Source: SAR324 cluster bacterium (GTDB lineage: Bacteria; SAR324; NAC60-12). Taken from it: a stretch of DNA of 64,000 bases. Numbering within the stretch: position 1 is the first letter of the stretch; each line of letters begins with the position of its first letter. Shown in pieces: positions 49,798-54,852 of the stretch. The notes beneath the pieces are model-generated. The model had not been told where the DNA came from. It saw only the letters and a list, made by a program, of their open reading frames with translations, and searched no databases. The DNA is taken from assembly GCA_015232315.1 (NCBI GenBank), contig JADFZZ010000004.1, positions 1 through 64,000 on the forward strand. The letters are read 5' to 3'. Made by a program: the position numbers and the translations under genes.

Positions 49798-49983
49798 ATG
49801 CAGGAAAGTCAACGATCCTATTATTGTTATCTCAATCATGGACAGGCAATGGTTCAGGAAATTCCACCTGAAAATTTTGAGGATCTTCCAGGACATTATA
49901 TGACACGGTGTCCCACGACTCAAATTGCCAGGATGGTGTATGATGCGGAATTAAGAATCAGAAAATGGAGATTTCAGGGATAG
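49798..49983 (+). CDS. Small ORF of 61 residues
   Basis: ATG at 49798 follows an excellent ribosome site (GCAAGGAGGGAACATG), the main support for its being real. The product (MQESQRSYYCYLNHGQAMVQ, DLPGHYMTRCPTTQIARMVY, DAELRIRKWRFQG) has two Cys and many aromatics, no signal peptide or membrane segment. It may be a small regulatory or phage-type protein. A 10-bp-stem hairpin follows the stop codon directly. Family not recognised. Confidence 0.6.
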   Translation: MQESQRSYYCYLNHGQAMVQEIPPENFEDLPGHYMTRCPTTQIARMVYDAELRIRKWRFQG

Positions 49984-50010
49984 CAGACTCCTGACTTACG
50001 CAGGAGTCTG
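49984..50010. terminator. Bidirectional terminator-like hairpin
   Basis: CAGACTCCTG (49984-49993), loop ACTTACG, CAGGAGTCTG (50001-50010): a perfect 10-bp stem lying between the stop of the plus-strand 61-residue ORF and the stop of the minus-strand RiPP precursor. It can fold in both transcripts. No T tract follows on either strand, so strength as an intrinsic terminator is uncertain. Confidence 0.6.
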
Positions 50011-50019
50011 AGGGGCGCA

Positions 50020-50583
50020 TCAGAAAAGTTTTGATGCCATATCAATGAGGCTTGTTCCACCTGTGAGTAGGGGGCCAAGACTGGGGAGAGCCTTTCCTAC
50101 AACAGAAACCAGAGAAGAAATTCCTTTGCACATTTCTGTATATTGTCCTTTTCCACCTGCGACTACCGCCAGATCAGAATCGCTCAATTCTCCATAAAAA
50201 TCAGGATTTACCGGCATTACCAGATGCAATTGATTTGGAGTGTTGGCATAAATCCTCAATTCTCCGGGAAATCCCAATCCTAATGATTCCTGAACCGCCT
50301 CATGAGGGTTTGACAGCAAGCGTTCACGAAATGCCGCATCGTCAAGAGCCTTACGAGAGACTCTGCCAACCGGATCATCCCCCCACACCGCATCTTTGGC
50401 CTGTGCTTCATCAAGCAGTACAAAATTCATGGTATCCAGCGTATCCTGATGAATCTGGACTTCCATATTCTCAGGCAACGATTGCCCCATTTGTGCCAAC
50501 GCCTCTTTCGGATTGCTGAACAACAGTTCTCTGAATGAAGTATCCGCCCAAGTTTTCTCAATAATTTGTTGATATAGTTCCAT
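50020..50583 (-). CDS. RiPP precursor with tandem NHLP-type leaders
   Basis: 187 residues from ATG 50583, behind AGCAGGTG. It contains two nitrile-hydratase-like leader modules in tandem: residues ~5-59 (WADTSFRELLFSNPKEALAQ ... VQIHQDTLDTMNFVLLDE) and ~72-125 (LDDAAFRERLLSNPHEAVQE ... LRIYANTPNQLHLVMP). A leader-peptidase site ELSDSDLAVVAGG (132-144) follows, ending in Gly-Gly. The predicted 43-residue core (KGQYTEMCKGISSLVSVVGK, then Gly/Ser/Leu-rich to LIDMASKLF) is hydrophobic with a single Cys at 152. NHLP leaders are known from precursors of ribosomally made peptides, which are normally modified and exported by C39-peptidase transporters; none is in the window. Confidence 0.85.
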   Translation of the reverse strand: MELYQQIIEKTWADTSFRELLFSNPKEALAQMGQSLPENMEVQIHQDTLDTMNFVLLDEAQAKDAVWGDDPVGRVSRKALDDAAFRERLLSNPHEAVQESLGLGFPGELRIYANTPNQLHLVMPVNPDFYGELSDSDLAVVAGGKGQYTEMCKGISSLVSVVGKALPSLGPLLTGGTSLIDMASKLF

Positions 50584-50995
50584 AATGCACCTGCTCAAGA
50601 AATGGTTAATGAAGAATACTCAAATATTATTAACCAGAATAATTGCGATTGTCCATGCTCCAATATTAATAATTCATGTCAGCGTCGTGAACTGTCACGA
50701 AGGCTCCATAAAAGACAGTCTGTATTTCAAGAGAAAAGCTGTTTTTATGTTGTTTTTAAGTAACTGAACAGGACTGTGCACTAAAAAACATCAATGTGGT
50801 AAAGTTGCGGATGGCTCATCGTGATGGCGTATAAAGGTATTTTGTGAAGTGACTCCAGATCCATTTGTCTGGCACATCATGATTCAACATTAACTTGAAT
50901 CTATTATTTTGATTGTGCATGTGTATGAACATGAAACTGTTAAAACTTCTCAATCAGCGATGATCACGTTTAGACAAATCAATCCCATGATCCTC
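50584..50995. other. Gene-free region between RiPP precursor and caspase operon
   Basis: 412 bp shared by the divergent RiPP precursor and caspase-like genes; it should contain both promoters. A TATAAA (about 50842) is preceded at a long spacing by TTGCGG, which is weak. Small inverted repeat CGTGA-ACTG-TCACG is present near 50687. No other gene is supported. Confidence 0.4.
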
Positions 50996-52735
50996 ATGAA
51001 TAGATTCAAACAGACCGTTTTTCAAATCGTTTTTCTGATGGGAATGGCACTGGCGTTTGGAAGGACAACATCACATGCCGCAGAAACACGAGGTTTTAAA
51101 ACCGTCATAAAAAACGACAAAGGGCAGGATATTGGATTTTATTCAGGAAGTTATGCGCTTCTGATCGGTGTGAGCGATTATACTGCCGGTTGGCCTGATC
51201 TTGAAAGCATTTCATCAGAACTTGAAGAAGTAGCCGTCTCGCTGAAAGAAAAAGGGTTCAAGGTTGAATTGGTGTTGAATCCAGACAGTCGGCAACTTCC
51301 AAAGGCCTATGAGGACTTTATCAAGAAATATGGCTATGATGTGAATAACCAGTTATTGTTTTATTTTTCTGGTCATGGGTTTACCAGAAATAATGGTTCA
51401 AAAGGCTATCTGGTACCTGCTGACGCACCCAATCCCACTGAAAATGAAAAAGAGTTTTTGCAGAAGGCTCTCAACATGAGCCGGATTTTGAACTGGTCTC
51501 GAGAAATGGAAGCCAAACATGCTTTATTTCTGTTTGACAGTTGTTTTTCTGGAACCATCTTTAAAACAAGAGCGTTGCCCAAGGTTCCTCCCCACATTAC
51601 TGAAGTCACTTCAAAACCCGTAAGACAGTTTATCACGGCAGGAAGCGCTGGCGAAGAAGTTCCGGCCCGCAGTGTTTTTACTCCGGCTTTTGTTCGCTCC
51701 TTGCGTGGAGAAGCTGATGTGAATCGTGATGGATATGTCACGGGAACAGAACTTGGTGTTTATTTGCGGGAAAAAGTCATGAGTTATCAAACCGGACAAA
51801 CCCCGCAATATGGAAAAATACGTGATCCGGAACTGGATGAAGGGGATTTCGTGTTCATAGTGCAGAATGGGGAAATACCAACGACGGTGTCTGCCTCAAC
51901 AGAATTTTCACTGGATGATCTGACTTCGCAGGAAAAGGCTAAATGGGAAAAATATCTCCATGAAATGAAACAGGCACTGGAACAGGTTCAGTTGTATGAA
52001 CAGGAATCTGGGTCGCCAGAACTCAAGGTGATGGCCTGGCAACGGTTTATTGATGCTTATGACAGCAATCATCCATGGTCTGACGAAGATGAAAAGTGGC
52101 GAGAGCACGGAAACCAGCAAAAAATCTGGTGGCAACAACAAATCAGCAATGCTGAAATCACCCTCGCAAATGAAATCTGGACAGAGCCACAAACCGGCAT
52201 GCGTTTCGTGAGGGTGGAAGGTGGACCTTTTTCAGAAAAAACATGGGTTGGGCAACATGAGGTTTCAGAATCACAATGGGAAGAAATTATGGGAAAACTG
52301 CCCGGTGATTCGCACGGAGCCATGCATCCCGTCCAGGTGAAAGACCTTGAATTGATCCATGAGTTTATCCATAAATTAAACCAGTCGCATCAACTGGAAG
52401 GTCCGTTTGAATTAATAAAACAGAAACAGTGGGAATACGTCTGCCGGGAAGGTGGAACCCAAACAGGAATGAGCAATTTCGCAAATCCAAAGAAAGTGAA
52501 TTTCGGGAAAAACAAAGGAATGGTGATGCCCGTGGATTCATTTGAACCGAATGTTCTCAACTTATACAACATGCAGGGTAATGTCGCGGAATGGGTGGAA
52601 GAAGGACTCCTCATGGGTGGAGACTGGATGTCGGCACCCAACGAAGTCCGTTGCGATTCCATAAAAAAAATGAGCGGATTTTTTGAAATGCTGGCTTATG
52701 ATGGTGGCGGATTCAGACTCATCCGAACGCCATAA
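50996..52735 (+). CDS. Exported caspase-like (C14) protein with FGE-sulfatase domain
   Basis: 579 residues from ATG 50996, chosen because it gives a signal peptide (MNRFKQTVFQIVFLMGMALA, then FGRTTSHA); in-frame ATGs at 50960 and 50987 are possible. Residues ~45-270 are a caspase fold: YALLIGVSDYTAGWPDLES, catalytic His in FYFSGHGF (H127) and Cys in LFDSCFSG (C183). The C-terminal ~190 residues are a formylglycine-generating-enzyme/sulfatase-modifying-factor-like domain (MRFVRVEGGPFSEKTWVGQH, MQGNVAEWVEEGLLMGGDW, GGGFRLIRTP), usually a binding or hydroxylase fold. The whole protein would act outside the cytoplasm. It is first in an apparent three-gene operon. Confidence 0.88.
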   Translation: MNRFKQTVFQIVFLMGMALAFGRTTSHAAETRGFKTVIKNDKGQDIGFYSGSYALLIGVSDYTAGWPDLESISSELEEVAVSLKEKGFKVELVLNPDSRQLPKAYEDFIKKYGYDVNNQLLFYFSGHGFTRNNGSKGYLVPADAPNPTENEKEFLQKALNMSRILNWSREMEAKHALFLFDSCFSGTIFKTRALPKVPPHITEVTSKPVRQFITAGSAGEEVPARSVFTPAFVRSLRGEADVNRDGYVTGTELGVYLREKVMSYQTGQTPQYGKIRDPELDEGDFVFIVQNGEIPTTVSASTEFSLDDLTSQEKAKWEKYLHEMKQALEQVQLYEQESGSPELKVMAWQRFIDAYDSNHPWSDEDEKWREHGNQQKIWWQQQISNAEITLANEIWTEPQTGMRFVRVEGGPFSEKTWVGQHEVSESQWEEIMGKLPGDSHGAMHPVQVKDLELIHEFIHKLNQSHQLEGPFELIKQKQWEYVCREGGTQTGMSNFANPKKVNFGKNKGMVMPVDSFEPNVLNLYNMQGNVAEWVEEGLLMGGDWMSAPNEVRCDSIKKMSGFFEMLAYDGGGFRLIRTP

Positions 52736-52773: not shown

Positions 52774-53535
52774 ATGACATTCATGAAAAAATGTGTTTCA
52801 CTGGTGTTTTTCGTGTTGCTTTCTGTTCAATCAGCAACAGCGCAGGACTCCTTGTATGACTTTCTGAAAAATATGGATTCATTTCTGGAAGATGTTCATT
52901 CAAATAGTTCAGGTTCTTCTTCGAGTGATTTTCAAACAAATGAGATGGATCAGTTTGAGAATGATTCCTCTGCTCCTGACAGCGTGTATGATTCTTATGC
53001 GCCAGCGACTCAACATAATCATGGGCAGTTCAAATTCATTAGCAATGTGAGTGGCCCCTTGACATTATCACAGGGACGGACTGAGCTGGAATTAACGCCC
53101 CAAATTATTGGGATTGGCGGCAATTATGTGTTTCCATCCAATCTGGGACTTGGGTTAACGTTACAAAATCTTAAAGCAAAAGAATCAGAGCTTGAAATGG
53201 AAACCAATACCCTGTCAATGGATCTTGGTTATTCCTGGTATTCACGGTCCATTCCCCTCACTGTTTTTGGAGGAGCAGGCCTGCTTTTGATGAACACGCT
53301 GGAGGTCACGTTGTCTGGTGCCAACAGTGAGACGGTCAGTAACGAATCCTCTGGTGAACTGGATGACATGCTGTTTTTTATCGGGGTGGGCTATGTTTTA
53401 CAGAAATGGGAATTTCTACTGGAATATCGCCAGACATCTTTTAATTATGCCTATGACATCTCATTTATCGGAAATGATGTGGATTTTGGCGCGGAACTCA
53501 CCAGTTTTGTTTTTGGTGCAGGAACTAAATATTAA
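52774..53535 (+). CDS. Outer-membrane-type beta-barrel protein
   Basis: 253 residues. A signal peptide (KKCVSLVFFVLLSVQSATAQ) precedes a Ser/Asp/Asn-rich segment (~25-75) and then alternating hydrophobic beta strands typical of small outer-membrane barrels (LELTPQIIGIGGNYVFPSNL, SMDLGYSWYSRSIPLTVFGG, WEFLLEYRQTSFNYAYDISF), ending in the aromatic-terminated VFGAGTKY common in barrels. The first ATG at 52774 has a weak site; ATG 52783 is an alternative. It is 38 bp after the caspase-like gene and 18 bp before the lipoprotein gene. Function unknown. Confidence 0.75.
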   Translation: MTFMKKCVSLVFFVLLSVQSATAQDSLYDFLKNMDSFLEDVHSNSSGSSSSDFQTNEMDQFENDSSAPDSVYDSYAPATQHNHGQFKFISNVSGPLTLSQGRTELELTPQIIGIGGNYVFPSNLGLGLTLQNLKAKESELEMETNTLSMDLGYSWYSRSIPLTVFGGAGLLLMNTLEVTLSGANSETVSNESSGELDDMLFFIGVGYVLQKWEFLLEYRQTSFNYAYDISFIGNDVDFGAELTSFVFGAGTKY

Positions 53536-53553: not shown

Positions 53554-54852
53554 ATGAGCAGGCAAACAGCAATGAAGACCAAAGACTGGATTAGCCAATT
53601 TCCATTATGGATGGTTTCGATCATTTTAATTACCGGATCCGTTGGGTGTACGACAGTTTTTCCGACTTTTGAAAACAGCAATCAGTTTTTTATGGAACGA
53701 ACTGTTGACCAGATTGAGGTTGGCAACAAACTCAAACAAAAATTACCCGCAGGGAGCACTGTCGCGGTTCGATCCATTGAAAAAGACTTTACTTCAGACC
53801 GTCCCATTGTCGCGTTGATTGAAGACCAGATGATCAAATCCTTGTCTGAAAATGGTTACAAGGTGATGGAACGTGATGAGAACTCTGTGTTTCATCTGAG
53901 TCGGGAACGTATGACCAATGGCAATTTTTCAGTCATTTTACGCAAGGAGGATAAACTCCCTGTTCCTGCGGAAACCAGGGTGGGCGTGTTGAGTATCGGC
54001 GTTGTGAATGAGAAAGACGATAAAAAAGACAAATCAGAGGATGAATATTTCAAGGTCATTCCCACCAAATTAAAACCCGCTGATTATCTGCTGAGCTATC
54101 GGATTCAGGAACTGGGAATTGTGTATCAGCGAATTCCCAATAATGATGAAGAAAAGAAACGGCTTGGAATGATTCGTGTTCATATCAGGGTGCAGGATAC
54201 CAACACCGGCGCGATTGTTTATGCGGATAACCTGCAGGGAGAATTGCAGGATATCATTCCGTCCGCGCTGGTTCGTCAGTTGAGAAATTTTCGCTACAGT
54301 CCATTTCCTCATACCTATCCTGAACAACCGGGAGGGCAGGACCGTGATATCAGGGAATACTCAGGTGAAGAAGACCGCGGATATTTTGTGGCAGTGGGAT
54401 TTCCACAATTGGGCGGCGGTGCAACCATGCCACCGGCAATGCTTGAATTCGGTTATGATTTCCGTGGAAATGGACGGGTTGGCATCGAAATGTTCAACGG
54501 TTCAGAAAAATCAACCGACGCACGAATCGGCAAACCTGATTTGAACCGCAGCACCACCTTGATCACTTATGCCTATCCCATGATGAATCTGGGGTACAAT
54601 TTTGTTAAATTTGTACCCTCCTTCGGACTGGGAAATATGACAGTGGATGTGGTGGAACACAAAAAAGTGGGTGGTGTCAGCACCATTGAAGTGAAGGAAA
54701 AAACAGGTATTGGCTTTAAAGGCTCAGCCGGCGTGGAAGGGTATCTCTTCTGGAATTTGGCTATTCGTGGTTTCTGGGATCTGAATATTGGTCCCGGGGC
54801 ACTCGATGGCATGTTCCAGCAATTGGGTGTGAAAGTTATTTACCGCTGGTAA
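53554..54852 (+). CDS. CsgG-like lipoprotein with C-terminal barrel-like part
   Basis: 432 residues, ATG 53554 behind GAGAGGAGG. A hydrophobic signal ends at the lipobox GSVGC. Residues ~50-250 resemble CsgG-type lipoproteins (AGSTVAVRSIEKDFTSDRPI, ALIEDQMIKSLSENGYKVME, IRVHIRVQDTNTGAIVYADN). The C-terminal ~150 residues have beta-barrel-like strands ending KVIYRW. CsgG forms an outer-membrane export channel, so this protein may export or anchor material; the extra C-terminal part differs from CsgG. It is the last gene of the caspase operon. Confidence 0.75.
   Translation: MSRQTAMKTKDWISQFPLWMVSIILITGSVGCTTVFPTFENSNQFFMERTVDQIEVGNKLKQKLPAGSTVAVRSIEKDFTSDRPIVALIEDQMIKSLSENGYKVMERDENSVFHLSRERMTNGNFSVILRKEDKLPVPAETRVGVLSIGVVNEKDDKKDKSEDEYFKVIPTKLKPADYLLSYRIQELGIVYQRIPNNDEEKKRLGMIRVHIRVQDTNTGAIVYADNLQGELQDIIPSALVRQLRNFRYSPFPHTYPEQPGGQDRDIREYSGEEDRGYFVAVGFPQLGGGATMPPAMLEFGYDFRGNGRVGIEMFNGSEKSTDARIGKPDLNRSTTLITYAYPMMNLGYNFVKFVPSFGLGNMTVDVVEHKKVGGVSTIEVKEKTGIGFKGSAGVEGYLFWNLAIRGFWDLNIGPGALDGMFQQLGVKVIYRW

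Follow-up and report, generated by a model that had tools for sequence, protein, structure and literature searches.

A two-module NHLP precursor gene in a SAR324 bacterium and its candidate role in a dispersed, selidamide-like RiPP system

Results

The precursor gene and its surroundings

The window, which is the whole 64-kb stretch of DNA analysed, contains an intact open reading frame encoding a protein with two NHLP-type leader modules, followed by one Gly-Gly (GG) site and a short core. The features of this locus are the following.

50020–50583 (−): two-module NHLP precursor gene; ATG at 50583, stop codon at 50020–50022, 187 aa
50413–50580 (−): leader module 1; TIGR03793 match, E 1.4e-13, in the same frame as module 2
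50152–50364 (−): leader module 2; TIGR03793 match, E 1.1e-14
50152–50190 (−): cleavage motif ELSDSDLAVVAGG, aa 132–144
50023–50151 (−): core peptide KGQYTEMCKGISSLVSVVGKALPSLGPLLTGGTSLIDMASKLF; 43 aa, calculated mass 4399 Da, one Cys
50149–50151 (−): Lys1 of the core, proposed acylation site; Lys1 in 7/7 paralogues, with NpuN as precedent (PMC13060382)
50128–50130 (−): sole Cys of the core (position 8), read from the sequence
50056–50079 (−): LGPLLTGG core motif, from the alignment; loosely [GN]P-x-x-[TL]GG in 7/7 paralogues
50584–50908 (no strand): intergenic region of 325 bp, shared with the divergent caspase/FGE gene
50909–52735 (divergent from the precursor): fusion of a caspase (Peptidase_C14) and an FGE-sulfatase domain

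The listed frame opens with TTG and would give 192 aa, whereas the ATG start gives 187 aa and coincides with the Met of the six aligned paralogues. The whole precursor scores 106.3 bits against TIGR03793, for which the curated cut-off is 50.9. The doubled leader is 144 residues long. Module 1 ends without a GG motif, and the GG together with the preceding (E/D)LSD motif is retained in the alignment of all seven paralogues.

An AlphaFold2 model built from eight related sequences (mean pLDDT 69, leader mostly 75–94) contains a unit of three helices and two strands twice over, followed by one final helix and a disordered core. Module 1 folds as helix-helix-helix-strand-strand (helices 2–13, 15–23 and 25–31, strands 41–46 and 51–56). 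Module 2 contains helices 71–81, 83–91 and 93–101 and strands 108–113 and 118–123, and its last helix (135–141) bears the cleavage motif. Residues 131–187 have pLDDT below 50, and the core is predicted to be disordered. The earlier note had read the product as a RiPP precursor in which two NHLP leader modules precede one GG site and a core of 43 residues containing a single Cys. The two TIGR03793 matches in one frame and the calculated core agree with this reading.

The caspase-like gene that had been noted across the common intergenic region indeed encodes a Peptidase_C14 plus FGE-sulfatase protein. It was rejected as a functional partner; its adjacency looks incidental, because the six other precursor copies have different neighbours. 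The same gene row continues with a probable outer-membrane β-barrel protein (52774–53535) and a protein without Pfam match (53554–54852). At the opposite side, a perfect 9-bp inverted repeat (AGACTCCTG / CAGGAGTCT, window positions 49983–50012) is located between a 61-aa open reading frame (49798–49983, +) and the 3′ end of the convergent precursor gene, and is a possible shared terminator of both. Consistent with the earlier description, the open reading frame lists of the 64-kb window contain neither a modifying enzyme nor a C39 transporter.

Seven paralogues with shared core features

A profile search of the whole genome yields 14 TIGR03793 matches in seven proteins, each of which has two modules. 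Contig C2 carries four of the genes, including one adjacent pair, and contigs C35, C48 and C4 carry one each, so that the seven occupy six sites. Their neighbourhoods are unrelated to one another and consist mostly of housekeeping genes. The earlier note had called the precursor an orphan and proposed searching for others with the same core. Run genome-wide, this check goes against an orphan, since it returns six siblings that have Lys1, one Cys and the [GN]Pxx[TL]GG motif.

In all seven cores, Lys is the first residue after GG, the single Cys occupies position 7–11, and a Ser or Thr follows this Cys by 2–4 residues. The cores are 43–65 residues long, with masses of 4.40 kDa for the window core and 5.6–6.4 kDa for the siblings, GRAVY values up to 0.55, several GxxxG steps and no Cys-rich stretch. 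Those of siblings A–D are near-identical 62-mers, whereas the cores of the window gene (W), E and F are divergent apart from kept features such as Lys1. Among A–D, dN is 0.10–0.19 in the core and 0.14–0.45 in the leader, with a core dS above 1 that is close to saturated. The product of A–D is therefore better conserved than the leader, and by this sequence-based measure their cores are under strong purifying selection. The window precursor shares 43–46% identity with each of its six siblings, and its leader shows dN of 0.43–0.57 and dS from 1.6 to saturated against every one of them. Since the architecture is common to seven paralogues, and dN lies far below dS in the four that can be compared, it reflects more than chance.

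These values also bear on whether the window gene is a decayed or silent duplicate. Its unlinked machinery, its modest identity to the siblings and the lack of an upstream dyad (see below) would agree with decay, but the frame, the cleavage motif and the core signature are intact and leader dN is well below dS against every sibling, which makes decay very unlikely.

The dyad is AGATC-N4/5-GATCT-N-GCACC (20–21 bp), found about 40–60 bp ahead of the start codons of siblings A, B and C (L009 9039, L011 10334 and L012 2409). No other sites occur in the 5.25-Mb assembly, where the reversed control pattern has zero matches. The dyad was rejected as a regulon mark, being absent before the window gene, the GNAT gene and the LanM gene.

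Exporter, GNAT and LanM on other contigs

The assembly is 95% complete and comprises 88 contigs with a total of 5.25 Mb. It contains exactly one C39 domain, which is part of an NHLP-type exporter (TIGR03796, 1094 bits) encoded on contig C16, away from the window precursor, and retains the C39 region ECGAAAL/HFV. This exporter gene is the last of a row transcribed in one direction, preceded by genes for a tandem GNAT, a TolC-like protein and an NHLP-type HlyD protein (TIGR03794, 392 bits). The tandem GNAT has two P-loop-like motifs. A single LanM (746 bits to TIGR03897), harboring a CCG motif, is encoded on a third contig, C29. The search for a C39 transporter and LanM suggested in the earlier note thus finds one of each, both on other contigs, and the word orphan applies to the precursor locally, not genome-wide, in view of the six siblings, the C39/HlyD/TolC exporter with its tandem GNAT and the LanM.

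No precursor was found at the LanM locus, and no Nif11 precursor in the genome. The genome search also found no YcaO, and the TOMM/azole feature is thus absent. None of the seven precursors is linked to any machinery gene, and the precursors and the GNAT are on different contigs. Because nothing is linked, precursors and machinery are paired here on the ground that no other candidates were found in this 95%-complete assembly.

Two further genes adjoin this machinery. A SPASM radical SAM gene (L040 12165–13271, −) is convergent with and downstream of the C39 exporter gene; it matches the tungsten-cofactor maturase family best, with a score under the cut-off of that family. It was rejected as part of the system, as it lies on the opposite strand with polysaccharide-type neighbours and scores under every curated cut-off. 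Immediately downstream of the LanM gene, a 705-residue protein without Pfam or NCBIfam match (L067 12509–14626) is a possible LanM partner.

The LanM raises the alternative that the product is a lanthipeptide made in trans by this enzyme in the manner of ProcM, with the GNAT irrelevant or later. The LanM is the only LanC-like gene found in the genome, where no Nif11 substrate family was found either, and it has the CCG motif, which marks the substrate-tolerant ProcM-like clade. Moreover, the Ser/Thr shortly after the single Cys is present in 7/7 cores, and the LanM of a related genome (G005, described below) is encoded beside a two-module precursor. On the other hand, cores A, C and E have no Ser/Thr ahead of the Cys and would permit only the less common ring direction, and the LanM itself adjoins no precursor. 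We regard this alternative as doubtful, although it is the strongest of those considered here.

Relatives of the GNAT and the first core residue

Selidamides are RiPPs bearing fatty acyl groups on the side chains of Lys or (hydroxy)ornithine (PMC9505594). They include phaeornamide, kamptornamide and nostolysamide, with the GNATs PhaN, KamN and NpuN (PMC9505594, PMC13060382). Among these, the tandem GNAT NpuN acylates Lys1 of its core and is inactive on the K1A variant (PMC13060382). The GNAT of the source genome is likened to PhaN/KamN/NpuN by description, and the nearest relative compared is 31% identical. This nearest RiPP-associated relative belongs to an NHLP-GNAT-LanM-arginase cluster, and the placement of the source GNAT in the tree is weakly supported.

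G005, a genome of the same family as the source genome, has a single cluster that combines a two-module NHLP precursor with a GNAT homologue, a LanM and a complete exporter. The G005 cluster (L041 8372–17514) additionally encodes an M48 peptidase, a cyclic-nucleotide-binding protein and an S41-family peptidase. Other relatives occur in an Acidobacteriaceae MAG (gene row NHLP-GNAT-peptide arginase-TolC-HlyD-ABC1-ABC2) and in G183 (NHLP-GNAT-LanM-arginase). They also adjoin NHLP precursors in G070, G075 (at 9 kb) and G098, and a Nif11 precursor on a Mesorhizobium plasmid. The gene sets around these relatives match those described for selidamides (PMC9505594).

K or R occurs within residues 1–3 of 6 of the 7 cores encoded beside a GNAT, versus 1 of 23 cores without a GNAT (Fisher p 8e-5). 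The three-residue window was picked after the data had been seen, and the comparison omits a few NHLP frames that are atypical or fragmentary. Counted by contig, the proportions are 6/7 and 1/6 (p 0.03). The G005 core has no K/R among its first three residues, though its precursor has two modules and a neighbouring GNAT. Lys1 in all seven cores of the source genome fits the rule as read from these sequences.

Related GNATs that are fused to TIGR03032 proteins have no precursor in view, so the GNAT family is not confined to RiPPs. Such fusions of TIGR03032 with a tandem GNAT of the RiPP-associated kind are present in cyanobacteria (L054 7729–9840, L055 7828–9822, L059 8732–10840 and L062 8717–10846), and the gene that follows each of them encodes a large protein of repeat or cadherin-like type. 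In the scan for GNATs, a five-sequence alignment was too diverged, and a three-row alignment gave 7 loci, mostly TIGR03032 fusions.

Class II microcins have a Gly-rich, hydrophobic core and are exported through C39-HlyD-TolC systems. The window peptide could accordingly be an unmodified, Gly-rich bacteriocin of this kind with a borrowed NHLP leader and C39-HlyD-TolC export, the GNAT and LanM serving otherwise. The core composition (its GRAVY values and GxxxG steps), the exporter set and a LanM without an adjoining precursor all fit. However, the GNAT gene lies inside the exporter row and its relatives adjoin NHLP or Nif11 precursors, and Lys1 is kept in 7/7 cores despite the divergence of W, E and F. 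We therefore consider an unmodified microcin unlikely.

Rarity and origin of the doubled leader

About 36 NHLP matches (E ≤ 1e-9) were obtained in 244 cyanobacterial genomes, and none shares its frame with a second match, which supports the earlier statement that most NHLP precursors have one leader module. By contrast, the true precursors in the sample of the source phylum are two-module in 8 of 8 cases. Further candidate two-module precursors in relatives were rejected, as almost all of them proved to be genuine alpha subunits of nitrile hydratase carrying CTLCSC.

The alpha subunits of true nitrile hydratases yield two TIGR03793 matches each, one per half. In profile comparison, one half is homologous to the other (hhalign P 1.6e-6, 45 columns), and the halves are also homologous to both NHLP modules. 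The loci behind the half-half homology are L026 1114–1731, L016–L025 and L046–L048. These sequence comparisons suggest that nitrile hydratase alpha itself derives from an internal duplication, and that NHLP did not arise by a simple 63-residue deletion.

The best structural match of the AlphaFold2 model is nitrile hydratase alpha (1ire), covering both modules over 140 columns with a TM-score of about 0.49. In addition, Pfam NHase_alpha scores 39 bits and is collinear over positions 43–173 of 184. Both matches would agree with a catalytically dead relative of nitrile hydratase alpha that has a cellular job and stays uncleaved, the outcome that the earlier note had set against its own reading. 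Yet the protein lacks the CxxCSC metal site, and its NHLP score of 106 bits compares with 34.7 for nitrile hydratase (cut-off 249.85). Furthermore, the C-terminus consists of a GG site and a distinct core tail whose signature is common to the seven paralogues, and the genome has an NHLP-type C39 exporter. A dead enzyme is thus highly improbable, the least probable of the alternatives.

From its sequence, the chain could derive either from duplication of an NHLP or from a complete nitrile hydratase alpha subunit whose metal site was lost. Each module is nearer to single NHLPs than to the nitrile hydratase halves, which favours duplication of an NHLP. However, in a tree of the modules, single NHLPs and nitrile hydratase halves, no constrained clade is rejected (AU p 0.39–0.66), so that both origins are compatible with the tree. 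Module 1 of a Nostoc chain and of the G005 chain groups with module 1 of the source genome (support 93, with a long-branch warning). Because of this grouping, the two-module form is probably old.

Discussion

NHLP/proteusin precursors (TIGR03793) were described by Haft et al. 2010 (PMC2887384). The window protein resembles them in its nitrile hydratase-derived leader without the metal site, its ELSD...GG motif, the NHLM exporter (TIGR03794/TIGR03796) in the genome, and the existence of paralogous precursors, some of them distant from enzymes. It differs in its two-module leader of 144 residues, whereas the typical leader has one module of about 80–90 residues. Moreover, the usual core is hypervariable and rich in Cys/Ser/Thr, while the cores here have one Cys and those of four siblings are more conserved than the leader, and here no precursor is linked to any enzyme.

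Two-module chains are rare, with precedents. WP_179076313.1, encoded on plasmid p057_G of Nostoc sp. C057, likewise has two NHLP modules before one GG site, but it lies beside a TOMM cyclodehydratase and a SagB-type dehydrogenase, and its 14-residue core has neither Lys nor Cys. The NHLP-Burk family (TIGR03795) forms fused pairs in Delftia and Acidovorax (PMC2887384), which also place two NHLP-type units in one polypeptide, although they are described as two fused precursors in a TOMM context with no GG motif. The prochlorosin (ProcM) system shares precursors scattered away from the modifying enzyme, and differs in its Nif11 leaders and very many hypervariable cores, compared with seven precursors with common core signatures here. 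Nitrile hydratase alpha (TIGR01323, PF02979) is collinear across both halves of the leader, but the window protein has no metal site and no enzymatic C-terminus.

The likeness to selidamides lies in the tandem GNAT beside an NHLP-type exporter, in Lys1 as in NpuA, and in the LanM of the genome. The separate contigs of GNAT, LanM and precursors, the doubled leader and the long, Gly-rich, one-Cys cores (43–65 aa) are different. As the genes do not form a cluster and acylation is a prediction only, we do not claim full selidamide membership.

With moderate confidence, we propose that the window gene and its six dispersed siblings function together, encoding the precursors of a selidamide-like RiPP system that acts in trans. 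The leader would dock the precursor onto shared, distant enzymes, and its second module probably contributes structurally to the surface used for docking. The GNAT would attach an acyl chain to the side chain of Lys1; by analogy with NpuN, we rate this step slightly above even. The LanM may join the Cys to a dehydrated Ser/Thr close by, giving a small thioether ring. As each core has one Cys, at most one ring per core could form; from the core sequences a lanthionine is possible, not obvious, and such a ring is somewhat less probable than its absence. Finally, the C39 domain would cut after the GG and the ABC-HlyD-TolC channel would export the Gly-rich, hydrophobic peptide of 43–65 residues; we consider this step very probable. 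Such a product would suit a membrane-active bacteriocin.

As for the doubled leader, its two modules could each bind a different enzyme, LanM and the acyltransferase, at the same time and so let seven unlinked genes share scattered enzymes, a scheme that we consider improbable. The earlier note had suggested that duplication could allow docking of two enzymes; the chain corresponds just as well to nitrile hydratase alpha with its pair of homologous halves.

NHLP/proteusin precursors and lipidating GNATs are already known, and their combination here is what differs. In the literature searched, we did not find a doubled leader combined with seven dispersed, conserved-core precursors and unlinked machinery. 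If the proposal is true, lipidated NHLP peptides are made in a lineage where the precursors, the acyltransferase/exporter row and the LanM lie apart, and genome mining based on clusters would miss them. The clustered relative in G005 would be easier to express, and the doubled leader would be a natural system for telling which leader surface each enzyme reads. In addition, the kinship with nitrile hydratase alpha, whose halves are homologous to both modules, bears on the origin of NHLP leaders.
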